DNA of 64,000 nucleotides. It comes from Burkholderiales bacterium. Its GTDB lineage: Bacteria; Pseudomonadota; Gammaproteobacteria; Burkholderiales; Burkholderiaceae_C. The translations under genes were made by a program, and so were the position numbers. The stretch's first letter is position 1. Each line of letters starts with the position of its first letter. The stretch covers positions 1 to 64,000 of the forward strand of contig JAFLDE010000016.1 of assembly GCA_017302655.1 (NCBI GenBank), given 5' to 3'. Below, one piece after another: positions 50,674 through 63,664 of this stretch. The notes under the pieces are model-generated. The model saw only the letters and a program-made list of their open reading frames with translations, searched no databases and was not told the DNA's origin.

Positions 50674-50757
50674 ACCCGTGACTTTGCACTCATGCCCCTC
50701 CCATTGGGGGATGCCTGCATGCCGGCCCGCGCCCCTACATTGCGCAGGCATGGATGG

Positions 50758-50789
50758 ACAGCCACGCTTCCCGCGTGGCTGTTTGCTTT
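50758..50789 (+). terminator. Intrinsic terminator after fumarase
   Basis: ACAGCCACGC (50758-50767) and GCGTGGCTGT (50773-50782) form a perfect 10-bp stem with loop TTCCC, followed by TTGCTTTG. It lies 85 bp after the fumarase stop and ends just before the GAGGAG ribosome site of the M16 peptidase gene, so it could also act as an attenuator for that gene. Confidence 0.8.
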
Positions 50790-50805
50790 GAGGAGTTTCT
50801 TTCCA

Positions 50806-53643
50806 ATGCGCAGCCGTCGCCGAACCTGCATCGCCCTCGCCCTCGTTGCCACGCTGAGCGCACAGGCCCAGAGCCCTCGCCCCGCCAAGGCCGCCGCCAA
50901 GCCCAAGGCCCCGCCTGCGGCTGTGGCGGCACCCGCGCCTGCACCCGCCCCAGTGCCCGCGGTGCTGCCAGCTCCTGTGGCGGTGCGAGAACTGGAAGGC
51001 ATCCTGGAATTCCGCTTGGCCAATGGCCTGCAGGTGCTGCTCTTCCCCGATCCTTCGGCGACCACCACCTTCCTGAATCTGGTCTACCGCGTCGGCAGCC
51101 GCCACGAGGGCGCAGGCGAAGCCGGCATGGCGCACCTGCTGGAGCATCTGCTTTTCAAAGGCGTGCCCTCGGTGGCCGACATCCCCAAGGCCATGAACGA
51201 GCGTGGCGTGCGATTCAACGCCACCACCAGCACCGACCGCACCAACTACTTCAGCAGCTTCAACGCGAGCGCCGACACGCTGGACTTCCTGCTGCAGCTG
51301 GAGTCCGAGCGCATGCAGCAAAGCCGCGTCGAGGCGGACGACCTGGCCAAGGAAATGCCGGTGGTGCGCAACGAGCTGGAGCAGGGCGAGAACAACCCCG
51401 GCCAGTTGCTTCGTCAGCGCCTGCTGGCCGCCGCCTACCGCTTTCACCCCTATGGCCGCCCGACCATCGGCACGCGCAGCGACGTCGAGAACGTACCCAT
51501 CGAGGCCCTGCGCCGCTTCTACCAGGCCCATTACCGGCCCGACAACGCGACGCTCATCATTGCTGGCGCCTTCGACCCTGCCGCCACCCTGGCGCGCGTG
51601 CAGCAGCGCTTCGGGCCGCTGAAAAACCCGAGCAGCAGCAAGCCCCTGACCTACACCATCGAGCCGCCGCAGGACGGCGAGCGCAGCGTGGTCGTGCGCC
51701 GAGTCGGCGGGCAGCCCCTGCTGGTGGCGGCCTATCACGTACCCGCCTTCGCCCACCCGGACTGCGCGGCCCTCAACCTGCTGGGGCAGATGCTCAGCCA
51801 GCCGCCCAGCGGGCCACTGCACCAACGCTTCGTCGAAAAGGACAAGCTGGCCGCCGCGGTGGGCGCCGGCGGCTGTGGAAGCCACGACGCGGGCCTGTTC
51901 AACGTGTTCGCCGTTCCCGCCGCCGGCGTGCCCATGGCGCGGCTGGAAGGGCCCCTGCTCGCCGCCGTGGAGCAGCGCGAGGGCATCGAAATCAGCCAGG
52001 AACAGTTCCAGCGCATGCAGGAGCAATTCGCACTGGGCTACAGCCAGTTGCTCAAGCGCCCGCAGGCCTTGGCCGGGCTGCTCAGCGAAGCGGTGGCGGC
52101 GGGCGACTGGCGTCTCGTCTTCAAGCTGCGCCGAGAGGTGGAAGCACTGAAGCTGGAGGACGTGCAGCGCGTCGCCGCGCACTACCTGCGCGCCAACAAC
52201 CGCACGCTGGCGCGCTACGAGCCGGCCAAGGAAAGCGGCGCGGTGGAAGTCCCGCAGGTGGCCGAGCGAAGCGCCGGCCTGGATGACCTGCGCACGCAGC
52301 CTGTGAGCGCGGGCGAACAGCTCGACCCCAGCCCGCTCGCGCTGCAGGCGCGCACGCAGTGGCAGACCCTGCCCAAGAGTAGGCTCAAGCTCAGCCTGCT
52401 GCCCAAGCAAAGCCGGGGAGACCAGGTGGTGGGCGAGCTCAGTTTGCGCTGGGGCGAGCGCGACGCGCTGCATGCTGCACACGAGGCCGGCTTCATCGCC
52501 CGCCTGCTGCAGGAAGGCACCGAGACCCTGAGCCGCCAGCAGTTCATCGATACCTCGGTGCGGCTCAAGGGCGGCTTCAACGTCAGCGCCGGACCACGCG
52601 GTCTGACCCTGCGCATCGAAGGCGAGCGCGATGGGTTCGTGGACCTGATGCGCCTGGCCTTCCAGGTGATGAAGGCCCCACGCCTGCCGGCTGACGCCTT
52701 CGAGCGCGCCAAGCGCGACACGCTGAAGGCCCTGCACGACAGCCGCACCGACCCGCAAACCCTGCGCCAGGAAGCCGTGCGCGCGCATTACAACCAGGCA
52801 CGCGGCGTGAGCCTCGGTCACCCGGACTACCAACCCAGCCTGGACGATCGCATCGGCTGGATCCAGGGTGTGAACCTGGACGCCGTGCGCGCCTTCCATG
52901 CGAAGTGGTGGAGTGCCAACGAGGGCGAAGCCGCCTTCGTGGGGCCCCTGCCCGACGGCCTGGCCGAGGCGCTTGACCACGAACTGGCCAGCTGGAAGAA
53001 GCCCGGCCTGCCGGCTTACCAACGCCACATCAGCCGCCACCAGCCGGTGCCGCCCGCCACCTTCCATGTGCAGGTGGCCGACAAGGCTTCCGCCGTGCTG
53101 CGGCTGCGGCAGCAGGTGCAACTCGACAGCGAGCACCCCGACGCCGTGGCCCTGGCCCTGGCCAACCATGTGCTGGGGGGCGGCTCGATGGCCAACCGCC
53201 TGAGCCAGAAACTGCGGGTGGACGGGGGGCTGACCTACGGCATCGCCAGCAACTTCTCCACCAGCAGCGACGGCGACGACGCCTCATGGACCATCGACAC
53301 CAGCGTCGCCCCCGAGAATCGCGACAAGGCGCTGGCCTTGATCGATGCCACCGTGCGCGACCTGCTGCGCGAGGGCGTGAGCGAGGCCGAGCTGAACGCG
53401 GCTCGCAACGCCCTGCTGCAGGATCGCCGCCTGGGCCGCTCGGGCGACGGCGCCCTGCCCGGCCGGCTCAATGCCCTGGCCGAACGGGGCCGAGACTGGA
53501 CCTACCCCGAGGCCTGGGACCAGCGCTACCGAGAAGCCACACTGGAGCAGGTGAACACTGCGCTGCGCCGCCACCTGAAGCCCGACGCCTGGGTCATTTC
53601 CAGCGCGGGCGACTACGCGAAGAAGCCGCCGATCAAACCCTGA
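50806..53643 (+). CDS. Exported M16-family zinc metallopeptidase, two fused halves
   Basis: The 945-residue protein has a signal peptide (CIALALVATLSAQAQ) and a Pro/Ala linker, then two M16 halves in one chain. The active half has the inverted zinc motif HLLEH at 110-114 with the distal glutamate expected near ARNELEQGENN; the second half (from about residue 500) lacks it and forms the clam-shell partner. It resembles PqqL-type periplasmic peptidases that degrade imported peptides. GAGGAG at 50790-50795 sets the ATG at 50806. A hairpin separates it from fumarase. Confidence 0.93.
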   Translation: MRSRRRTCIALALVATLSAQAQSPRPAKAAAKPKAPPAAVAAPAPAPAPVPAVLPAPVAVRELEGILEFRLANGLQVLLFPDPSATTTFLNLVYRVGSRHEGAGEAGMAHLLEHLLFKGVPSVADIPKAMNERGVRFNATTSTDRTNYFSSFNASADTLDFLLQLESERMQQSRVEADDLAKEMPVVRNELEQGENNPGQLLRQRLLAAAYRFHPYGRPTIGTRSDVENVPIEALRRFYQAHYRPDNATLIIAGAFDPAATLARVQQRFGPLKNPSSSKPLTYTIEPPQDGERSVVVRRVGGQPLLVAAYHVPAFAHPDCAALNLLGQMLSQPPSGPLHQRFVEKDKLAAAVGAGGCGSHDAGLFNVFAVPAAGVPMARLEGPLLAAVEQREGIEISQEQFQRMQEQFALGYSQLLKRPQALAGLLSEAVAAGDWRLVFKLRREVEALKLEDVQRVAAHYLRANNRTLARYEPAKESGAVEVPQVAERSAGLDDLRTQPVSAGEQLDPSPLALQARTQWQTLPKSRLKLSLLPKQSRGDQVVGELSLRWGERDALHAAHEAGFIARLLQEGTETLSRQQFIDTSVRLKGGFNVSAGPRGLTLRIEGERDGFVDLMRLAFQVMKAPRLPADAFERAKRDTLKALHDSRTDPQTLRQEAVRAHYNQARGVSLGHPDYQPSLDDRIGWIQGVNLDAVRAFHAKWWSANEGEAAFVGPLPDGLAEALDHELASWKKPGLPAYQRHISRHQPVPPATFHVQVADKASAVLRLRQQVQLDSEHPDAVALALANHVLGGGSMANRLSQKLRVDGGLTYGIASNFSTSSDGDDASWTIDTSVAPENRDKALALIDATVRDLLREGVSEAELNAARNALLQDRRLGRSGDGALPGRLNALAERGRDWTYPEAWDQRYREATLEQVNTALRRHLKPDAWVISSAGDYAKKPPIKP

Positions 53644-53654
53644 TCAAGGCCTGA

Positions 53655-53945
53655 TCAAGCGCGCTCGCGCAGCGCGCGCAGCTCGGCCTGCAGCATGCGC
53701 TCGCGCAGGTCGGTGCCCTGCAAGGAGAGCAGCGTGACCAGACCGTGGATGGCCAGGCCCAGGCCCCAGCCCCAGAGCGGCAGGCGGTGCAGACCGCGGA
53801 AGTCGCCATGCAAGCCGCCAAGCACAAACAGGCCGCCATTGACGCACACGAAAACCAGCAAGTGGGTGAGGAAGCCGAGCTTCATCTCGACGCGCTTCTT
53901 GGCCTGGCGGCGCAGCTGGATGTCCTGGGGGCTGAGGTTGGTCAT
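53655..53945 (-). CDS. 2TM-domain membrane protein
   Basis: The 96-residue protein has a basic N-terminus (LRRQAKKRVEMKLGF) and two helices (LTHLLVFVCVNGGLFVLGGL and LPLWGWGLGLAIHGLVTLLS), the 2TM-domain family pattern, often seen fused or next to LytS-like kinases. Function is unknown. The ATG at 53945 is preceded by GGAG. It converges on the M16 peptidase gene with only 11 bp between stops. Confidence 0.85.
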   Translation of the reverse strand: MTNLSPQDIQLRRQAKKRVEMKLGFLTHLLVFVCVNGGLFVLGGLHGDFRGLHRLPLWGWGLGLAIHGLVTLLSLQGTDLRERMLQAELRALRERA

Positions 53946-54091: not shown

Positions 54092-55012
54092 TCAGGCCTG
54101 CGTCACCGTCACCGCCACCTCGGGCTCCGACGCCCCGCCGCCGCGAATGACCCCGCGCAACGGGGCCACATCGGCCTGGTCGCGTCCCCAGGCCAGCAGG
54201 GCGTGCTGCTGGTTGACCGCCAGATCGTTGGTCGGGTCCAAGGCCAGCCAGCCCTGCACCGGGCACCAGACCTCGAACCAGGCATGCGAGGCGTCGGCCC
54301 CTTGAAGACGTGGCTGGCCGGGCGGCGGCTCGGTGAGCAGATAGCCGCTCACATAGCGCGCAGCCAGGCCGAGGCTGCGACAGGCGGCGATGGCGATCTG
54401 CGCGAAGTCCTGGCACACGCCGCGGCCACCACTCAGTGCCTCGGCCGCCGTGGTGTGCACCGCCGTGCTCTGGGTTTCGTAGCGCATGCGGCGGTGCACG
54501 AGTGCGTTGAGGGCCAGCGCGCCGGCGGCCAGCGTGAGGCCCGGGGCAAAGGCCTCGCGCGCAAAGGCGGCGAGCTGGGCGTCGGGCGCGGCGTAGGGCG
54601 AGGCCAGGCTGAACTCGGCTTCGGCCGCCTGCACCCGACCGGCGCGGTACTGCAGCAAGCCGGCCACCTGCTCCCAGGCTTGCCCGACCGCCGGGTCGAT
54701 GGACGCGTGCGGAACCACCTGCACGACGAATTCGCTGCACACCGACAGCTCCCGGTGCACGCGGCTGTGACCGAACACCAGTCGTGCATTGCCCCAGGCG
54801 TCCTCGGTCAGGTGCTGGTGGGCCTGCTGGGCGCCGTCCTGCCGGCCGCCCCAGCCGTCGGGCAGTGGGTCGATGGCAAGATGCCAACGCTCGAGGCGCT
54901 GGTGCTCGGTCTCGCGCGGCCTCAAGAAGGCGACATGCTGCGCCAGCTCCACCGGCACCGGGTGCGCATAGTGGGTGTCGTGGCGCACGTGAAGGCGCGA
55001 GGTCGTCGTCAT
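54092..55012 (-). CDS. Transglutaminase-like cysteine peptidase
   Basis: The 306-residue protein has an N-terminal bacterial transglutaminase-associated beta region (SRLHVRHDTHYAHPVPV) and a transglutaminase-like core with the catalytic triad: Cys in SGGRGVCQDFAQIAI, His in DASHAWFEVW and Asp in GWLALDPTND. It overlaps the CP-ATP-grasp/alpha-E fusion by four bases (ATGA), so it is the last gene of the leftward cluster. In such clusters this protein is predicted to cut or transfer peptides made by the ATP-grasp enzymes; no product is known. Confidence 0.92.
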   Translation of the reverse strand: MTTTSRLHVRHDTHYAHPVPVELAQHVAFLRPRETEHQRLERWHLAIDPLPDGWGGRQDGAQQAHQHLTEDAWGNARLVFGHSRVHRELSVCSEFVVQVVPHASIDPAVGQAWEQVAGLLQYRAGRVQAAEAEFSLASPYAAPDAQLAAFAREAFAPGLTLAAGALALNALVHRRMRYETQSTAVHTTAAEALSGGRGVCQDFAQIAIAACRSLGLAARYVSGYLLTEPPPGQPRLQGADASHAWFEVWCPVQGWLALDPTNDLAVNQQHALLAWGRDQADVAPLRGVIRGGGASEPEVAVTVTQA

Positions 55013-57606
55013 TGCCAGACCTGCTGTTGCTGCGCGTGAGCGAACAGTTTCTGGCCGATCTGCACCGACAGGCCTTGAGCCGCCTCGCCACACTGCTGCA
55101 GGAGGGCCTGCAGGAGAGCCGGCTCGCGCAAGAGCGCGGCGAGTGACCAGTCGTCAGGGTGCGGCAGTTCGTCCGCCACGCGCGTGGCCCAGACCGGCTC
55201 GTGGCGGGCAGCCTTGAGCAGGCGCTCACGCAAGGTGCCTGCCACCCAGGCCAGCGCCCGCGGGTTGTCACGGTCCATCAAGAGCAATTGCACCAGCGGG
55301 GCCAATTCGCGTCGGCTCTGGAACTGTGCGCGGTAGGTGATGGTGGAGTCGGCCAGCGCCAGCAGCAGCGAGAAGCCTTCTTCGTGCTCGGTGAGGCCCT
55401 GCTGCAAGCCGGTGAGCAGCATGTCGGATTGGAAGTCCAGACGCTCGATCTGCCGGCCCACGCTGAGCAGGCGCCAGCCGTCATCGCGTGTCATGCGGTC
55501 CAGCTGTCCGCCGGTGAGCGCGGCCAACTGCAGGTCGCAGGCCGCCAGCAGCGCCTGCACCTCCAGTTCGCCCCCGGCCAAGGCCTGCACAAAGCGAGCC
55601 TCGAAGTCCTCGACCAGCCGCTCGATCTGGCCCCAGTGCGCGCTGGACAGGCGCTCTCGCAGCTGCTGAGCGTTGTAAAGCAGGCGGCGCAGGGTGTGGG
55701 CGAGGCTGTAGGCCTTCGGGTCGCCGAGCTGCTGCAGGATCTCGCGGCGAAGCTCGCGCGCGTGCGTCGGCGCCGGCGGGTGCACCAGGCCGTGGCGTAG
55801 CGCCAGTCGCTTCAAGGCACCGTGCAGGGCCAGCGGCGCATCGGCGGCTGCTCGCTCGCTGGCGGCCAGGGCGAGGAGGCTGTGGCGCGCCAGGCGCAAG
55901 GTGTTCTCGGCGCGCTCGGTGTAGCGCCCCAGCCAAAAGAGGTGCTCGGCCGAGCGGCTGGTCACGGTGCGGCGCGTGCGCGCCAGCTCGTCCGGTTGCA
56001 GCGGGGGCGGCAGCAGGGTGCTGCGGTCCACCTCGGCAGCGCCCTCGGTGAGCACCCAGGTGTCCACGCTGGCGGCGCCGGCCTGCAGGCTCAGCAGCGC
56101 ATCGGGCGAGCGCACGCCGCGCTGTGCGGCGATGCGGGTGAGCCCGCCCGGCAGCACGCGCCAACCGCCCAGGCCATCGCTGAGCGCGTAGACCCGCAGC
56201 AACGCAGCCCGCGGCTCCAGGCAACGCCCCGTCCACAGCGGCTGCTTGGACGGTCGCACGCGCGTCTTGAGCGTGAACGCGGCGGGGTCATGGTCGATGC
56301 GCTCGCGCAATTGAGCAAGCTGGCTGGGTGAGAGCTCGTCTGCGGCAAAGGTCTGCGATGCACCGCCAGGGAAAGTGGGTGCGACCAAGTACTGCGCCAG
56401 ACGATCGCCCTGGCGCTCGCGTTGCCAGGCTGCAGCCTCGCCGCACCACCAGCCACGGCTCGACGGCAAGCTCAGCGATTCACCCAGCAGGGCCTCGGCC
56501 ACGCCCGGCCAGAAAGCATCCAGGCCTGGACTTTCCAGCCAGCCGCTGCCCGGTGCGTTGGCCACCACCACCTCGCCGGCGCGCAGGGCGTCCACGAGGC
56601 CGGGCACGCCGAGCTGCGAATCGGGGCGCAGTTCGAGCGGATCGAGGTACTCGTCGTCCACGCGGCGAAGGATGCCGTGCACACGCTGCAGGCCGTGCAG
56701 GGTCTTCAGGAAGACGCGACGGCCGCGTACGGTGAGGTCGCCCCCTTCGACCAGGGCCAGACCCAAGTAACGCGCCAGGAAGGCCTGCTCGAAGTAGGTC
56801 TCGTTGGCCGGGCCGGGGGTGAGCAGGACCAGATGCGGCGACTGCCCGCCCTCGACCAGGGGCTCGGCCAGCCGCACCAAGCCCTGCACAAGCACGCGGA
56901 ACGCCCCGGCCAGGCGCTGCACGGCCAGCGCGCGGAAGGCCTCGGGGAACTGCTCGGCCACGGTCAAACGGTTCTGCAGCATGTAGCCCAGGCCTGAGGG
57001 CGCCTGGGTGCGCTGCCCCACCACCCACCACAGGCCGTCGGGGCCGCGTGCGAGGTCGAAGGCCACCACATGCAGATGCACACCGCCGGGCGGCCGGCAG
57101 CCGTGCATGGCGCGCAGGAACTGCGGGTGCGCGAGCACCAGCGAGGCCGGCAGCAGGCTGCGCTGCAAGAGCTCGCGCGGGCCGTAGAGGTCAGCCAGCA
57201 CGGCGTTGAGCAGCTTCGCGCGCTGCTTCACGCCGGCTTCGATGCGCCGCCACTCCGCCGCCGGCACGAGCAGGGGCAGGAGTGCCAGCGGCCAGACCTG
57301 GCTACCAGCCGCTGGCGCACCTTCCTCGCTGCCTTGCGCGTAGACGGTGTAGCGCGCGCCGTCTTCCTGCACCCGCCGCCGCACCCGTGCCTGCCGGGCA
57401 TCGAGTTCGGCGGGTCCGCTCAGATGGCTGGCGGCCCAGAAGCGCTGCCAGGGCGAGGCGAGCGTGCGCGCCAGCTGGCCTGCCTCCACCGGAGCTGCGT
57501 GGAGCTCATCCCAATGACCCTCGCGAGGTCGAAGCGCCTCCGGCATCCAGAACGCATGGGCAGGATGCCCCGGCTCCGGCAGCAGCGAAACCTGCTCGGG
57601 ACTCAC
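55009..57606 (-). CDS. Fusion of circularly permuted ATP-grasp and alpha-E domains
   Basis: The 865-residue protein joins two families. Residues about 1-500 are a circularly permuted ATP-grasp (DUF404/407): VHLHVVAFDLARGPDGLWWV, LLTPGPANETYFEQAFLARY, GRRVFLKTLHGLQRVHGILR and DPAAFTLKTRVRPSKQPLW. Residues about 535-865 are an alpha-E (DUF403) domain beginning SAEHLFWLGRYTERAENTLR. Elsewhere in this cluster the same domains are separate genes. ATP-grasp proteins of this type are predicted peptide-bond-forming ligases. The GTG start at 57606 overlaps the DUF2126 gene's stop (GTGA). Confidence 0.88.
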   Translation of the reverse strand: MSPEQVSLLPEPGHPAHAFWMPEALRPREGHWDELHAAPVEAGQLARTLASPWQRFWAASHLSGPAELDARQARVRRRVQEDGARYTVYAQGSEEGAPAAGSQVWPLALLPLLVPAAEWRRIEAGVKQRAKLLNAVLADLYGPRELLQRSLLPASLVLAHPQFLRAMHGCRPPGGVHLHVVAFDLARGPDGLWWVVGQRTQAPSGLGYMLQNRLTVAEQFPEAFRALAVQRLAGAFRVLVQGLVRLAEPLVEGGQSPHLVLLTPGPANETYFEQAFLARYLGLALVEGGDLTVRGRRVFLKTLHGLQRVHGILRRVDDEYLDPLELRPDSQLGVPGLVDALRAGEVVVANAPGSGWLESPGLDAFWPGVAEALLGESLSLPSSRGWWCGEAAAWQRERQGDRLAQYLVAPTFPGGASQTFAADELSPSQLAQLRERIDHDPAAFTLKTRVRPSKQPLWTGRCLEPRAALLRVYALSDGLGGWRVLPGGLTRIAAQRGVRSPDALLSLQAGAASVDTWVLTEGAAEVDRSTLLPPPLQPDELARTRRTVTSRSAEHLFWLGRYTERAENTLRLARHSLLALAASERAAADAPLALHGALKRLALRHGLVHPPAPTHARELRREILQQLGDPKAYSLAHTLRRLLYNAQQLRERLSSAHWGQIERLVEDFEARFVQALAGGELEVQALLAACDLQLAALTGGQLDRMTRDDGWRLLSVGRQIERLDFQSDMLLTGLQQGLTEHEEGFSLLLALADSTITYRAQFQSRRELAPLVQLLLMDRDNPRALAWVAGTLRERLLKAARHEPVWATRVADELPHPDDWSLAALLREPALLQALLQQCGEAAQGLSVQIGQKLFAHAQQQQVWQ

Positions 57607-60600
57607 ACGCGCCGCAGATCCAGGGTGAAGGGGAACTCGCGGCTTGGCCGGGGCGGCCCGGCCGTCACCGCCTCGGTGCTGTGGTTCATCGCGAAGAAGC
57701 GTGCCAGACGCCGGCTTTCGGCCTCGTAGGCATTGACCGGCAGGGTGACGTAGTTGCGCCCACCCGGGTGGGCGACGTGGTACTGGCAGCCGGCCAGGCT
57801 GCGTTGCATCCAGGTGTCGATCAGGTCCAGGGTGAGCGGCACATGGGGTTCGATGGTGGGGTGCAGGCTGCTGGCCGGGTTCCAGGCGCGGTAGCGCACG
57901 CCACACACAAACTCCCCGGCCCGGCCGGTGGGCTGCAGCGGCAGGCTGTGGCCGTTGACGGTGATGCGGTGGCGAGGATCGGTGAGCCCGCTCACCTTCA
58001 CTTCCAGGCGCTCGAGCGAGGAATCCACGAAGCGCACCGTGCCCCCCGCCATGCCCTCCTCGCCCATCACATGCCATGGCTCCAGCGCCGCGCGCAGCTC
58101 CACGTGCACACCGCGCGCGGACAGCTCGCCCAGCTTGGGGAAGCGGAAGGCGAAGTGCGGGGCGAACCATTGCGCATCCAGCCGGTGACCACTGCGCGCC
58201 ATGTCTTCGAGCACGTCCTCCAGGTCCTGCTGGATGAAGTGCGGCAGCAGCCAGCGGTCGTGCAGGCTGGTGTCCCAGCGCACCAGGGTCTCGCAATAGG
58301 GTTGCCGCCAGAAGCGAGCCACCAACGCGCGGATGAGCAGCTGCTGCACCACGCTCATCCGGGCGTGCGGCGGCATCTCGAAAGCGCGCAACTCCAACAG
58401 ACCGAGGCGACCGGTCGGCCCGTCGGGGCTGTAGAGCTTGTCGATGCAGAACTCGCTGCGGTGCGTGTTGCCGGTGGCGTCGATGAGGATGTTGCGCAGG
58501 GAGCGGTCGATGAGCCAGGGCGGCACCTCGCCGCCCTGCTTCTCAATTTCGCCCAGCGCGATCTCGAGCTCGCGCAATTGGTCGTTGCGCGCCTCGTCCA
58601 CGCGCGGTGCCTGGCTGGTGGGGCCGATGAAGAGCCCGCTGAACAGGTAGCTGAGCGCCGGATGGTTGTGCCAGTAGCGCAGCAGGCTGCCCAGCAGGCT
58701 GGGCTTGCGCAGGAAGGGCGAGTCGGCCGGCGTGGCGCCGCCCAGCACGAAGTGGTTGCCACCCCCGGTGCCGGTGTGGCGGCCGTCGATGAGGAACTTC
58801 TCCGGCGCGAGCCGGGTCTGGTACGCGGCCTCGTAGAGGAACTCAGTGTGCGCCACCAGCTCTCGCCAGTTGCTCGCCGGGTGGATGTTGACCTCGATGA
58901 CGCCAGGATCAGGCGTGACCTGCAGGACCTTGAGGCGCGGGTCGCGCGGCGGCGGGTAGCCCTCCATCACCACGGGCAGCTGCAGCTGCGAGCAGGTCGC
59001 TTCGATGGCGGCGACCAGCTCCAGATAGTCCTCGAGCTGGGTGAGCGGTGGCATGAAGACATAGAGCACACCGGTGCGCGTGCCGACCGCCTCCGCTTTG
59101 GGCCCGTTGGCGCGGCGAGGGTCGCGGGCTTCGACGCAGAGCGCAGTGCGGGTGACCCAGTGTGCGCTCTGGAAGCGCTGGGGCAGCAAGGCGCTGGCGC
59201 TTTCCCCGCTTGCCCTGCTCTCCTCACCCGGCCCGGCGCCCTGCCCTTGCACGCCCACCATGCCGCCTTCGGCAAAGCCGTGCCCGGCCTGGTGCGCGTC
59301 GTAACCCGGCGGGCTGCCCTGGCCCTCGAACTGGCGGCGCAGCTGGGCCGAGGAAGGCAGCAGCTTGCGCGGTGCGAAGGGGTCGCTGGGGTGCTGGTAG
59401 GGGTACTCGCTGTCCTTCACCCAGGGCAGCGAGTCGAGCGGCAAGCGCAGGCCCATCGGCGAATCGCCGGGGTAAAGGTACATGCGTTCGTCGCGGAAGA
59501 ACCAAGGCCCCGTTCGCCAGCGGCCTGCGTCACGCGAAAGGGGCAGCGCGTAGCCGACGGTGGTGGTCAAGCCCTGCTCGAACACGCGGCGCAGGCGGGC
59601 GCGTTCCAGCTCGTCGTCGAGGCGGCTGTCGAAGGGGTCGACGTTGGTCGGCAGCCGCCGCTCGCGCCACAGGTAGTACCAGCTGTCCTCGTAGCCGGGC
59701 TGGATGAACTCCGTCGCCAGGCCGAGCTTCTGCGCCAGCAGCGCGATGAAGCGGCGCGCATCGTCCGGGCCGTAGTCATGGGCATCGCGTTCGTCGGCCA
59801 GCCACTTCGGCTCGTGCCAGCAGGGCTGGCCGTCGGCACGCCAGTAGCTGGATAAAGCCCAGCGCGGCAATTGCTCGCCCGGGTACCACTTGCCCTGGCC
59901 GAAGTGCAGGAAGCCGCCTCGGCCGTACTCGTCTCGGAGCCGCTGTACGAGCTCCTGGGCATACAGGCGTTTGGTGGGACCCACCGCATCGGTGTTCCAT
60001 TCCGCCGCGTCGCGGTCGCTGGTGGCCACGAAGGTCGGTTCGCCGCCCATGGTCAGGCGCACATCGTGGTCCACCAGATCGGCCTCCACGGCCTCGCCAG
60101 CGGCCAGGATGGCCTGCCATTGCGCGTCCGTGTAAGGCGCCGTGACGCGTGGGCTCTCCCAGATGCGGGTGACCGACATCTCGTGCCCGAAATCGACCTC
60201 GCAGGGGTCGACGCCGCCGGAGATGGGTGCCGCACTCGATGGCTGCGGCGTGCAGGCCAGCGGGATGTGCCCCTCGCCGGCCAACAGGCCGGAGGTCGGG
60301 TCCAGGCCGATCCAGCCGGCGCCGGGCAGGTAGACCTCGCACCAGGCGTGCAAGTCGGTGAAATCGTGCTCGGCGCCGCTCGGGCCGTCCAGCGCCTTCA
60401 CATCGGGGCGGAGCTGGATCAGGTAGCCGGACACGAAGCGCGCCGCCAGGCCCAGGTGGCGCAGCAACTGCACCAGCAGCCAGCCCGAGTCGCGGCAGGA
60501 GCCGCTGGCCTTGCACAAGGTCTCCTCGGGCGTCTGCACGCCGGGTTCGAGGCGGATCAGGTAGCTCACCGCCTGCTGCACGCGCCGGTTGAGCGCCACC

Positions 60601-61034
60601 AGGAAGTCGATGGTGGCGCGCGGCTCGCGCTCGATGCCGGCCAGGAAGGCGGCGAAGGCGGGCGTGGCCGCCTCCTTCACCAGGTAGGGCGCCAGCTCGG
60701 CCTGCTGGGCCTCGCCATAGCGGAAGGGGAACTGCTCGGCCCCGGGCTCCAGGAAGAAGTCGAAGGGGTTGAGCACCGCCATCTCGGCGACCAGATCGAC
60801 GGTGACGGTGAACTCGCGCGTCTTCTCGGGGAACACGAGCCGCGCCAGGTAGTTGGAGAAGGGATCCTGCTGCCAGTTGATGAAGTGCTCGCCCGGCTCG
60901 ATGCGCAGCGAGTAGCTGAGCACCTTGCTGCGGCAATGCGGCGCCGGGCGCAATCGCACCACTTGCGGCCCCAAACCCACCAGGCGGTCATACCGGTAAC
61001 GGGTGACATGCCGGAGCGCGACGTGGATGCTCAT
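57603..61034 (-). CDS. Large transglutaminase/DUF2126 protein
   Basis: The 1143-residue protein begins with a transglutaminase-N region (MSIHVALRHVTRYRYDRLVG) and a transglutaminase core at about residues 160-260 (KASGSCRDSGWLLVQLL with the Cys, AWCEVYLPGAGWIGLDPTSG with the His and Asp region), then the long DUF2126 segment (LTMGGEPTFVATSDRDAAEW, DGRHTGTGGGNHFVLGG, AWNPASSLHPTIEPHVPL). DUF2126 is a glutamine-synthetase-like amidoligase-type domain by fold prediction. Start ATG 61034 overlaps the alpha-E stop. It is the central gene of the cluster. Confidence 0.9.
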   Translation of the reverse strand: MSIHVALRHVTRYRYDRLVGLGPQVVRLRPAPHCRSKVLSYSLRIEPGEHFINWQQDPFSNYLARLVFPEKTREFTVTVDLVAEMAVLNPFDFFLEPGAEQFPFRYGEAQQAELAPYLVKEAATPAFAAFLAGIEREPRATIDFLVALNRRVQQAVSYLIRLEPGVQTPEETLCKASGSCRDSGWLLVQLLRHLGLAARFVSGYLIQLRPDVKALDGPSGAEHDFTDLHAWCEVYLPGAGWIGLDPTSGLLAGEGHIPLACTPQPSSAAPISGGVDPCEVDFGHEMSVTRIWESPRVTAPYTDAQWQAILAAGEAVEADLVDHDVRLTMGGEPTFVATSDRDAAEWNTDAVGPTKRLYAQELVQRLRDEYGRGGFLHFGQGKWYPGEQLPRWALSSYWRADGQPCWHEPKWLADERDAHDYGPDDARRFIALLAQKLGLATEFIQPGYEDSWYYLWRERRLPTNVDPFDSRLDDELERARLRRVFEQGLTTTVGYALPLSRDAGRWRTGPWFFRDERMYLYPGDSPMGLRLPLDSLPWVKDSEYPYQHPSDPFAPRKLLPSSAQLRRQFEGQGSPPGYDAHQAGHGFAEGGMVGVQGQGAGPGEESRASGESASALLPQRFQSAHWVTRTALCVEARDPRRANGPKAEAVGTRTGVLYVFMPPLTQLEDYLELVAAIEATCSQLQLPVVMEGYPPPRDPRLKVLQVTPDPGVIEVNIHPASNWRELVAHTEFLYEAAYQTRLAPEKFLIDGRHTGTGGGNHFVLGGATPADSPFLRKPSLLGSLLRYWHNHPALSYLFSGLFIGPTSQAPRVDEARNDQLRELEIALGEIEKQGGEVPPWLIDRSLRNILIDATGNTHRSEFCIDKLYSPDGPTGRLGLLELRAFEMPPHARMSVVQQLLIRALVARFWRQPYCETLVRWDTSLHDRWLLPHFIQQDLEDVLEDMARSGHRLDAQWFAPHFAFRFPKLGELSARGVHVELRAALEPWHVMGEEGMAGGTVRFVDSSLERLEVKVSGLTDPRHRITVNGHSLPLQPTGRAGEFVCGVRYRAWNPASSLHPTIEPHVPLTLDLIDTWMQRSLAGCQYHVAHPGGRNYVTLPVNAYEAESRRLARFFAMNHSTEAVTAGPPRPSREFPFTLDLRRV

Positions 61035-61960
61035 CGCAGGTACTCCTCGCTGATGTCCATGCCGAGTTGGTTGACGCGGGCCAGGAACTGCTTCAGATAG
61101 GGGTGCAGGCCGGCGGCGAAGACTTCGTCGATGCGACCGAATTGCAGTTCCGCGTGCAGGCGGTTGGCTTGGCGCAGGGTTTCGCCTCGGTGCCCCGGGC
61201 TGACCTTGGCGAGGTTGCTGACCACCCGCGTCATGCAGTAGCTGAGGGAGCGCGGCATGCCTTGGTTGAGGATCAGCAACTCGGCGACCTTCTCGGGTTG
61301 AATGACATTGCTGTAGACCTTGCGGTAGACCTCGAAGCCCGACACCGACAGCAGCACCGCGCTCCAGTGGTAGTAGTCGTCGACCGCGTCGCCGACCGCC
61401 TCGCGCGGGGCGTGGTACTTCACGTCGAGCAGGCGGGCGCTGTTGTCGGCACGCTCCAGGAAGCCGCCGATGCGCAGGAACTGCAGGGCCTCGTCCTGCA
61501 ACATGGTGCCCACGGTGACGCCGCCCAGCAGGTGCGAGCGGAACTTCACCCAGTCGAAGAAGGCCGCCGGGTCGCGCTGGTGCAGTTGCTCCTTGAGCAG
61601 GCGCCGGAACTCCAGCCAGGTGGTGTTGGTGGTCTCCCAGACCTCGGTGGTCAAGGTGCCGCGCACGGCGCGGGCGTTCTCGCGCATGGCGCGCAAGCAG
61701 TTGTAGATCGAGCTGAGGTTGCTCTCGTCGGCCACCATGAACTCGGTCACCAGTTCCGGTCGCACGTCGCCATAGCGCGTCTGGTAGGCAATGGTGAGCT
61801 CGGAGATCGAGAGCAGGCTGGCCCATCCCTGCGCCGCATCGCCGGCGGACTGCGGCAGCAAGGAGGTCTGGTAATTGACATCGAGCATGCGAGCGGTGTT
61901 CTCGGCCCGCTCCATGTACCGAGCCAGCCAAAAGAGGCTGTCTGCCGTCCTGGAAAGCAT
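61031..61960 (-). CDS. Stand-alone alpha-E domain protein (DUF403)
   Basis: The 309-residue helical protein matches the alpha-E family: MLSRTADSLFWLARYMERAE at the start and repeated Glu-rich helices (GGFLERADNSARLLDVKYHA). It shares the opening motif with the fused alpha-E domain at 55-57 kb, so the cluster holds two such domains. Function is unknown; it always occurs beside CP-ATP-grasp and transglutaminase proteins. It overlaps the DUF2126 gene by four bases and lies downstream of the stand-alone ATP-grasp gene across a repeat. Confidence 0.9.
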   Translation of the reverse strand: MLSRTADSLFWLARYMERAENTARMLDVNYQTSLLPQSAGDAAQGWASLLSISELTIAYQTRYGDVRPELVTEFMVADESNLSSIYNCLRAMRENARAVRGTLTTEVWETTNTTWLEFRRLLKEQLHQRDPAAFFDWVKFRSHLLGGVTVGTMLQDEALQFLRIGGFLERADNSARLLDVKYHAPREAVGDAVDDYYHWSAVLLSVSGFEVYRKVYSNVIQPEKVAELLILNQGMPRSLSYCMTRVVSNLAKVSPGHRGETLRQANRLHAELQFGRIDEVFAAGLHPYLKQFLARVNQLGMDISEEYLR

Positions 61961-62030
61961 CTCTCAAGTCTCCACGGAAGTAAGTGGCAGGCTCGTGAAG
62001 GTCAGCGAGCCATCAAGCGACCCCCGTGGA

Positions 62031-62097
62031 ACCGGCTTGGCCGGGCCACTGGGGGTGCCCCCTTGAGGGGGAGCGCGAAGCGCAACGGGGGTGGGTG
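62031..62097. repeat. Burkholderiales-type palindromic intergenic repeat between ATP-grasp and alpha-E genes
   Basis: This segment contains stacked inverted repeats: CCGGCTTGGCCGG, GGGGGTGCCCCC, CCCCCTTGAGGGGG and GCGCGAAGCGC. The form CCCTTGAGGGGGAGCGCGAA recurs between genes in many Comamonadaceae-type genomes. Here it sits inside the 137-bp gap between the ATP-grasp stop and alpha-E start, where it could stabilise or partly terminate the message. Confidence 0.75.
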
Positions 62098-63549
62098 TCA
62101 TGCTTCCAAGACCCAGGTGTCCTTGGTGCCGCCGCCTTGCGAGCTGTTCACCACCAACGAGCCTTCCTTCAGGGCCACACGCGTCAGGCCGCCGGGCACC
62201 ATGCGCACCTCGCGGCCGCACAGCACATAGGGTCGCAGGTCGATGTGACGCGGCGCGATGCCGCTTTCCACGTAGGTCGGGCAGGTCGACAGGGACAGGG
62301 TGGGTTGGGCGATGTAGTTGGCCGGGTTGGCGACGAGTTGCGCGCGGAAGGCTTCGATCTCGGCCTTGCTGGCGGCTGGCCCCACAAGCATGCCGTAGCC
62401 GCCCGCGCCATGCACCTCCTTGACCACCAGCTCCGGCAGGTGGGCCAGCACATGCTTGAGGTCGTCAGGGTCGTGGCACTGCCAGGTCGGCACGTTGTGC
62501 AGGATGGGCTTCTCACCCAGGTAGAACTCGACCATCTTGGGCACGTAGGGGTAGATGGACTTGTCGTCGGCGATGCCGGTGCCGATGGCATTGCACAGCG
62601 TCACCTTGCCCGCCTTGTAGGCGGCCAGCAAGCCGCGGCAGCCGAGCGTGGAGTCGGCACGGAAGGCGTCGGGGTCGAGGAAGTCGTCGTCGATGCGGCG
62701 GTAGATCACATCCACCCGCCTGGGCCCGTGCGTGGTGCGCATGTACACATAGCCCTGGTCGACGAACAGGTCCTGCCCTTCGACGAGTTCGACGCCCATC
62801 TGCTGCGCCAGGAAGGCGTGCTCGAAGTAGGCCGAGTTGTACATGCCGGGTGTCATGACGACCACGGTCGGGTCGGCGTTGCCGCCCGGCGCCACCGAAC
62901 GCAAGGTGTCCAACAGCAGGTCCGGGTAATGCGCGACCGGTGCGACGCGATGCTGGCTGAACAATTCGGGGAAGAGCCGCATCATCATCTTGCGGTTCTC
63001 CAGCATGTAGCTCACGCCGCTGGGCACGCGCAGGTTGTCCTCGAGCACATAGGTCTGGCCGCTGCCATCCGGCTGCGCCGCACGCACCAAGTCGACGCCG
63101 GCGATGTGGCTGTAGATCCCGCCCGGCACATCGACGCCCACCATCTCGGGGCGGTACTGGGCGTTGTTCAGGATGCGTTCTGCAGGCACCAGGCCGGCCT
63201 TGAGGATCTCCTGGCCGTGATAGACGTCGTGGATGAAGCGGTTCAGGGCCGTGACGCGCTGTGCCAGGCCCTTCTCCAGCTCGGTCCATTCGTCGGCCGG
63301 GATGACGCGGGGGATGAGGTCGAAGGGAATCAGGCGCTCGGTGCCCTCGCCGTCGTCCTTGTCTCCGTACACCGCGAAGGTGATGCCGACCCGCCGGAAG
63401 ATCAACTCAGCTTGCTCGCGCCGTTCGCGCATGCGCTGCAGCGGCTGCTCGGCCAGCCAGCGGGCATAGCTTTGGTAGTGCGCGCGGGCCGCCTCGGGCG
63501 AGGGTTGGCTGCCGCTGCGCAGCATCTCGTCAAACATCACACGGTTCAT
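62098..63549 (-). CDS. Stand-alone circularly permuted ATP-grasp protein (DUF404/DUF407)
   Basis: The 483-residue protein shows the CP-ATP-grasp pattern: VYHGQEILKAGLVPAERIL, YVLEDNLRVPSGVSYMLENR, VMTPGMYNSAYFEHAFLAQQ, DQGYVYMRTTHGPRRVDVIY, LVVKEVHGAGGYGMLVGP and the C-terminal EVRMVPGGLTRVALKEGSLV. The permuted fold is predicted to activate a carboxylate with ATP and form an amide. The ATG at 63549 is preceded by GGAGG. It is the first gene of the leftward five-gene cluster and is about 115 bp downstream of the MscS gene. Confidence 0.92.
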   Translation of the reverse strand: MNRVMFDEMLRSGSQPSPEAARAHYQSYARWLAEQPLQRMRERREQAELIFRRVGITFAVYGDKDDGEGTERLIPFDLIPRVIPADEWTELEKGLAQRVTALNRFIHDVYHGQEILKAGLVPAERILNNAQYRPEMVGVDVPGGIYSHIAGVDLVRAAQPDGSGQTYVLEDNLRVPSGVSYMLENRKMMMRLFPELFSQHRVAPVAHYPDLLLDTLRSVAPGGNADPTVVVMTPGMYNSAYFEHAFLAQQMGVELVEGQDLFVDQGYVYMRTTHGPRRVDVIYRRIDDDFLDPDAFRADSTLGCRGLLAAYKAGKVTLCNAIGTGIADDKSIYPYVPKMVEFYLGEKPILHNVPTWQCHDPDDLKHVLAHLPELVVKEVHGAGGYGMLVGPAASKAEIEAFRAQLVANPANYIAQPTLSLSTCPTYVESGIAPRHIDLRPYVLCGREVRMVPGGLTRVALKEGSLVVNSSQGGGTKDTWVLEA

Positions 63550-63664
63550 GAAAGCCGCCTCCTCATCTCCATCAGAGCAACTTTCGCGCCTTGTTCGCGG
63601 CCGGACATACCCGAGTGCCGCCCCAGGCTGGTGCCGCCGACGCACCGCCGCGGGGCGGATGCGC

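Follow-up and report, generated by a model that had tools for sequence, protein, structure and literature searches.

A conserved ATP-grasp, alpha-E and transglutaminase cluster with an apparently non-catalytic fused ATP-grasp and nitrogen-type promoter motifs

The circularly permuted (CP) ATP-grasp, alpha-E and transglutaminase-like families, for which Iyer et al. (2009) reportedly proposed a role in making peptides or modifying proteins, are widespread, with alpha-E present in 86 and DUF2126 in 50 of the 150 Pseudomonadota genomes sampled. No substrate for these families is named in the literature searched. The closest described system is the Anbu operon (Pseudomonas putida PP_2685-2688 and Yersinia bercovieri), which contains a stand-alone CP-ATP-grasp, an alpha-E protein and a transglutaminase-like protein, and whose genes are induced by nitrogen limitation (PMC8050072, PMC7801951). 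Here, we describe a related five-gene cluster in a window of 64,000 nt, the first part of contig JAFLDE010000016.1 from a Burkholderiales bacterium. Its module A consists of a stand-alone CP-ATP-grasp (AG1) and a stand-alone alpha-E protein (AE1), and its module B of a large protein joining a papain-like transglutaminase to DUF2126 (TGbig), a fused CP-ATP-grasp/alpha-E protein (AG2-AE2) and a small transglutaminase-like protein (TG2). The cluster belongs to a known, widespread and unsolved kind, and the useful point is that the inferred ATP site has been lost, in a conserved manner, from the fused form.

Compared with the Anbu operon, this cluster lacks Anbu, which is located elsewhere in the assembly, and adds DUF2126 and a fused alpha-E protein with an apparent pseudo-ATP-grasp. 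The same families form one cluster in Burkholderia cenocepacia H111 (I35_5080-5083, comprising DUF404/407, DUF403, a transglutaminase [TG] and a large TG protein), where locus-tag order places an extra TG gene between the alpha-E gene and that of the large protein; a fused protein goes unmentioned in the portion of the source used. The order AG1, AE1, TG-DUF2126, AG2-AE2, TG2 recurs identically in Enterobacter roggenkampii, where the run is plasmid-borne (NZ_CP116251) and the fused protein is 38.9% identical over 61%. In the window all five open frames are intact on the minus strand, from 63549 to 54092, with the coordinates and domains assigned by an initial annotation. The gene set, its conservation, the loss of the inferred site, the predicted folds and the promoter motifs were obtained by sequence comparison and models. 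They lead us to think that, under nitrogen scarcity, the cluster probably forms amide bonds between small molecules or peptides.

The stand-alone and fused ATP-grasps

AG1 matches both PF14403 (E 7.1e-167) and PF04174 over its full length, at 555.5 and 509 bits. It matches PDB 3n6x (Mfla_0391) at E 1.9e-216; that entry is titled putative glutathionylspermidine synthase and names no ligand. The inferred Mg/ATP ligands D153, E170, N172, K330 and K377, together with a GG.G loop, are complete in 92/92 stand-alone proteins, the window's included, and AG1 appears to keep a complete Mg-ATP site like that of glutathione synthetase and GspS, as far as such a mapping carries. In Y. bercovieri, the ATP-grasp encoded in the Anbu operon has been reported to release phosphate from ATP (PMC6376114). 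In AE1, two E-R pairs (E17-R18 and E169-R170) are conserved in 91 or 92 of 92 proteins; at E <= 0.001, AE1 and AE2 are the only alpha-E matches in the window's assembly. These ligand counts, and the trees described below, cover sequences within set length ranges, and the far set for the ligand comparison comprises 14 AG1 and 22 AG2 sequences from 25 loci (L160-L184).

AG2 also has a full-length PF14403 match and the fold, and AG1 and AG2 are homologous over their full length. The initial annotation had counted two full copies of the ATP-grasp plus alpha-E combination, which is right by homology and wrong by inferred catalytic residues: the full ligand set is found in 0/117 AG2 proteins versus all 92 AG1. 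E170 survives in 1/117, N172 in none (replaced by R in 109, H in 7 and Q in 1), K330 in 1/117 and the GG.G loop in 1/117. In the window, G197, R199, P360 and A409 occupy the positions of E170, N172, K330 and K377. The motif of eukaryotic-type glutathione synthetase, GspS, YgiC/YjfC and fungal Cp1B is absent from AG2. By these comparisons, the fused AG2 looks like an ancient, conserved pseudo-ligase. Its age is suggested by trees in which stand-alone and fused forms separate cleanly (support 1.0 for AG1/AG2 and 0.999 for AE1/AE2); because both trees show this split, the two forms are taken, on phylogeny, to stem from an old duplication, a possibility that the initial annotation had suggested checking.

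Two other explanations of the fused protein bear on the same residues. The initial annotation proposed two ligations in succession, for which both ATP-grasps would have to be active. Both domains are indeed full-length homologues, the fused gene is under purifying selection (ratio of nonsynonymous to synonymous substitution, dN/dS, 0.26, versus 0.10 for AG1), and K377 is retained in 77/117 AG2 proteins. Set against this are the near-complete loss of E170, N172, K330 and the loop, and the absence of K377 as well from the window's AG2. Because no fused protein keeps the full ligand set, two ligations by these two domains are unsupported, and we consider them very unlikely. Alternatively, the fused ATP-grasp could have gained a new activity through a rebuilt active site, as in some pseudokinases. 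The changes are themselves conserved, not only N172 to R but, in the nearer set of 95 AG2 proteins, Q in place of R174 in 89 and S in place of D329 in 93; the same set retains D153 in 94 and R439, R457 and D477 in 95/95. No catalytic residue set can be named for such a site, however, and the GG.G loop is absent in 116/117, so that this explanation strikes us as improbable. Loss of catalytic residues in both ATP-grasps, which the initial annotation would have counted against its proposal, was found in the fused protein only. We found no mention of the loss in the literature searched, although it may already have been published.

One fused protein outside the window (L164:1995-4598) has an SGGRG loop resembling the glycine-rich loop of AG1 and lacks E170, N172, K330 and K377. 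It may represent an intermediate stage of the site's disappearance.

DUF2126, the transglutaminases and the linkage of the modules

The cluster nevertheless probably has a second ligase, and DUF2126 is likelier in that role than AG2 because its model is predicted to have a glutamine-synthetase fold. Of the 50 matches that VIA lists for the model, 49 carry titles of glutamine synthetases or related proteins, and the remaining match is Dop. At ∼870 residues, DUF2126 is longer than the matched glutamine synthetase chains, and unlike them is fused to a transglutaminase domain. It has no significant sequence relative in the PDB. For DUF2126, E57, E439, N441, H486, R584, E606 and R608 are invariant in 45/45. 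The transglutaminase domains, to which the initial annotation assigned the processing of the product, retain a Cys-His-Asp triad: C200, H243 and D259 are present in 101/101 small proteins of modules A and B, and in the large protein C and H are present in 103/103 and D in 102/103, the remaining sequence having a gap.

All 53 of the 150 genomes that have DUF2126 or the fused protein also hold a stand-alone alpha-E (hypergeometric 5e-18). The fused copy is present in 49, and split and fused forms co-occur in 49/150 genomes, which disposes of the possibility, raised by the initial annotation, that they never do. Among 60 relatives, DUF2126 was found in 25, alpha-E in 42 and the fused copy in 23; fused and stand-alone forms were tallied by eye from score and open-frame length. 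Module A is frequently present without module B. In 48 mapped stretches (47 with at least one match; three of the 48 from the window's assembly), the modules stand in one run, divergently or apart, and module A consists of AG1-AE1, sometimes joined by a transglutaminase as third gene and Anbu. The order TGbig, AG2-AE2, TG2 was found within the stretch in 69/80 named loci, which were chosen for holding DUF2126; they are the best 80 of at least 593 matches in a contig scan, with titles naming beta- or gammaproteobacteria or, in five cases, Proteobacteria only.

Promoter motifs and a proposed nitrogen pathway

That this family is under nitrogen control was known before from published B. cenocepacia, P. 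putida and marine metagenome data. I35_5080-5083 of B. cenocepacia are named as targets shared by sigma-54 and NtrC; the values tabulated for an ntrC mutant are −8.2, −9.4, −9.4 and −6.0 (PMC5491218). On nitrate, PP_2685 and PP_2688 of P. putida are up (PMC8050072), and PP_2686-2688 are up under nitrogen limitation (PMC7801951). In marine metagenomes, the abundance of these domains is linked with urea metabolism (PMC3597751). What is new is that a sigma-54 motif precedes each of the two modules where it stands by itself and is mostly missing where the module is internal.

We counted motifs scoring >=11 within 300 nt upstream, using weights of our own built from a consensus. By our own definition, a gene was classed as internal if another cluster gene lay <=500 nt upstream on the same strand. 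The motif precedes leading AG1 in 56/75 loci (55/74 without the window) and leading TGbig in 61/77, versus 51/930 control open reading frames (ORFs). At internal genes it is found in 2/25 (TGbig), 1/78 (AE1) and 3/84 (AG2); internal TG2, at 14/102, exceeds the control rate. The smaller classes gave 3/3 for AG1 classed as internal, 3/14 for AG2 leaders, 0/1 for an AE1 leader, and 3/4 and 5/13 for TG2 leaders, where in some loci the best TG2 match is another transglutaminase gene; Anbu had 0/4 as leader and 1/17 as internal. A 250-nt variant of the count yielded 27/41 for AG1, 9/23 for TGbig and 8/304 for controls. Since the sigma-54 hypothesis was prompted by the window's own site, the window was left out of the permutation test, as were sequences containing N; none of 300 column-permuted motifs reaches the real count, with or without thinning of similar sequences (thinned sets, 52/71 AG1 and 52/68 TGbig leaders). 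NtrC-like palindromes scoring >=11 precede 23/75 AG1 leaders and 24/77 TGbig leaders, versus 15/930 controls. Thus the view that split and fused modules belong together holds up on three counts, namely the old duplication, their co-occurrence in 53/53 genomes, and the same motif where each starts its own transcript. Scans of the window alone were uninformative, with 341 sigma-54 pattern matches versus 364 expected and 1813 GG-N10-GC matches versus 1722 expected; only the comparison with relatives is informative.

On balance we lean modestly toward one amide-forming pathway under nitrogen limitation, in which two ligases are active and a paralogue is non-catalytic. Under nitrogen shortage, NtrC would activate transcription of the cluster. 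AG1, partnered by AE1, would convert a carboxylate to an acyl phosphate that is then joined to an amine, and the DUF2126 domain would make a second ATP-dependent amide (or gamma-amide) bond. AG2-AE2 would form no bond, serving instead as a docking or regulatory subunit that binds substrate, product or AG1, and the two papain-like transglutaminase domains would act last, cutting or transferring the amide product. The pathway would likely serve to capture nitrogen bound in amines or peptides, to re-route it or to turn it over; purpose and substrates are the weakest part of the proposal. A more specific version, which we put forward tentatively and with slightly less than even confidence, holds that the ancient fused pseudo-ligase is a required non-catalytic subunit, and that an ATP-grasp and a glutamine-synthetase-fold ligase work as a pair to make an amide-linked nitrogen compound or protein mark during nitrogen starvation. 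Catalysis by AG1 and DUF2126, the partner role of AG2-AE2, transglutaminase processing and the nitrogen purpose are what we infer from the comparisons. Stating which domains are catalytic and which are not, and when the genes are induced, narrows the open question to a few experiments.

Several observations weigh against this pathway. The AG1 ligand positions are ones that we take from GspS residue numbers together with motif and fold similarity, and a profile alignment of AG1 with Escherichia coli GspS gave no match. AG2 still has D153 in 115/117 proteins and K377 in the majority already mentioned, through which some residual nucleotide binding may persist. Both the non-catalytic role of AG2 and the nitrogen purpose are steps that we infer. 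For DUF2126, model confidence is middling (pLDDT 76.6), Foldseek returned no match at E <1e-3 (best E 5.5e-3), and a profile comparison with GCS2 gave none. Module B is divisible: the fused protein occurs without DUF2126 in 3 of the 150 genomes and in 2 of the 60 relatives, and the reverse in 4 and 4. One relative, G013 (65% complete), is the only module-B genome among the 60 without a stand-alone alpha-E, and the relatives are non-independent samples. The window's sigma-54 site is good and its NtrC-like site weak. In P. putida under nitrogen limitation, PP_2686-2688 were induced 14.2-, 16.0- and 19.6-fold in an rpoN mutant versus 12.6-, 11.0- and 14.7-fold in wild type, and this retained induction speaks against strict sigma-54 dependence there; urtA-D, likewise placed under NtrB/NtrC by the authors, showed the same behaviour in that mutant, and PP_2685 (Anbu) was nearly flat in wild type, at 1.12 (PMC7801951).

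Layout, neighbours and further features

The features of the locus are collected in Table 1. The initial annotation described four junctions as overlapping or abutting and listed three; those three are 4-nt overlaps (ATGA at 61031/61034, GTGA at 57603/57606 and ATGA at 55009/55012), whereas the fourth, between AG1 and AE1, is a gap.

Table 1. Features of the cluster and its upstream region in the window.
Feature	Position	Strand	Remarks
AG1, stand-alone CP-ATP-grasp, 483 aa	62098..63549	-	PF14403/PF04174; presumably an active ligase
AE1, stand-alone alpha-E protein, 309 aa	61031..61960	-	PF04168, E 5.1e-98
TGbig, papain-like transglutaminase + DUF2126, 1143 aa	57603..61034	-	PF08379+PF01841+PF09899; transglutaminase ∼residues 1-270, DUF2126 residues 276-1143
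AG2-AE2, fused CP-ATP-grasp/alpha-E, apparent conserved pseudo-ATP-grasp	55009..57606	-	PF14403/PF04174+PF04168; AG2 ∼residues 1-535, AE2 ∼residues 546-865
TG2, small transglutaminase-like protein, 306 aa	54092..55012	-	PF01841 (E 2.4e-21), PF08379
AG1-AE1 gap, 137 nt	61961..62097		hairpin-like repeat CCCCCTTGAGGGGGAGCGCGAAGCGC at 62058-62083
Candidate sigma-54 promoter AGGCGCGAAAGTTGCT	63576..63591	-	score 11.4; starts 42 nt before the AG1 ATG
Weak NtrC-like palindrome GCACCAGCCTGGGGC	63620..63634	-	score 10.5, under the counting threshold of 11

Two further explanations turn on what surrounds the cluster. Scans for neighbours and small ORFs set aside 19 near-duplicate loci as well as L055 and L057. 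Among ORFs of 20-110 aa lying up to 1500 nt from a cluster gene, the only family shared by >=5/101 loci was a partial alpha-E copy, so the conserved precursor peptide sought at the suggestion of the initial annotation was not seen there. Nor does Anbu, the other neighbour it suggested, lie near the cluster: the Anbu gene stands solo on contig C151 (L055:6929-7672, G000), with no other cluster gene in the surrounding 15 kb. Three other genomes of the same genus have Anbu operons, and the solo gene shares 83-84% identity with their Anbu genes, as though a lost operon had left it behind; it adjoins an ORF that reads, by inspection, like a histidine kinase.

A graspetide-like cluster, dedicated to a peptide natural product made from a ribosomal precursor, would have a parallel in other systems where ATP-grasp ligases are generally known to make such products. 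The missing small-ORF family, the broad distribution and the nitrogen-type promoter motifs all tell against it, and we give it hardly any credence. Protein tagging and turnover with a pupylation-like logic, in which a glutamine-synthetase-fold ligase and an ATP-grasp attach a tag that Anbu or the papain-like domains remove, also lacks a small, conserved ORF for the tag within 1500 nt. The Anbu gene here is not linked to the cluster, and the sequence upstream of it scores only 9.0 for the sigma-54 motif. For YbAnbu, neither peptidase activity on the tried substrates nor a specific interaction with the other proteins of its operon was seen (PMC6376114). Tagging therefore seems unlikely to us, and we continue to prefer the nitrogen-limitation pathway.

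Four neighbour families are conserved (in >=7 of 105 loci), none with a member from the window's own stretch, and none was used as evidence: ComEC-like (32/105) and gyrase/topoisomerase-subunit-like (9/105), both labelled by sequence inspection, and YjgF/RidA-type (10/105) and Peptidase_Mx (7/105), with one member each identified by Pfam. In its seven loci, the zinc-ribbon Peptidase_Mx metallopeptidase (e.g., L120:17804-18949) has a median distance of 20 nt to the closest gene of the cluster. It had no match in the window's assembly, but the same search matched no control genome either.

The AG1-AE1 junction exceeds 100 nt in 14/78 loci, the window among them, and CCCCCTTGAGGGGGAGCGCGAAGCGC occurs twice in the assembly (<=2 mismatches), the other copy being on contig C58. 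In 7/78 loci (L044, L050, L073, L081, L095, L097 and L098), the start of the alpha-E gene (∼60 nt) is duplicated between AG1 and AE1, upstream of the real gene, at 77 to 98% identity; in L044 the duplicate consists of two tandem units. A spacer able to fold into hairpins follows, and several of the seven spacers are mutually similar. The duplicate looks like either a small element that inserts at the conserved ER-A codons and restores the gene start, or a hairpin leader ORF. Downstream of the cluster in the window are a 2TM-domain protein (53658-53945) and, on the opposite strand, an M16 peptidase (50692-53643).

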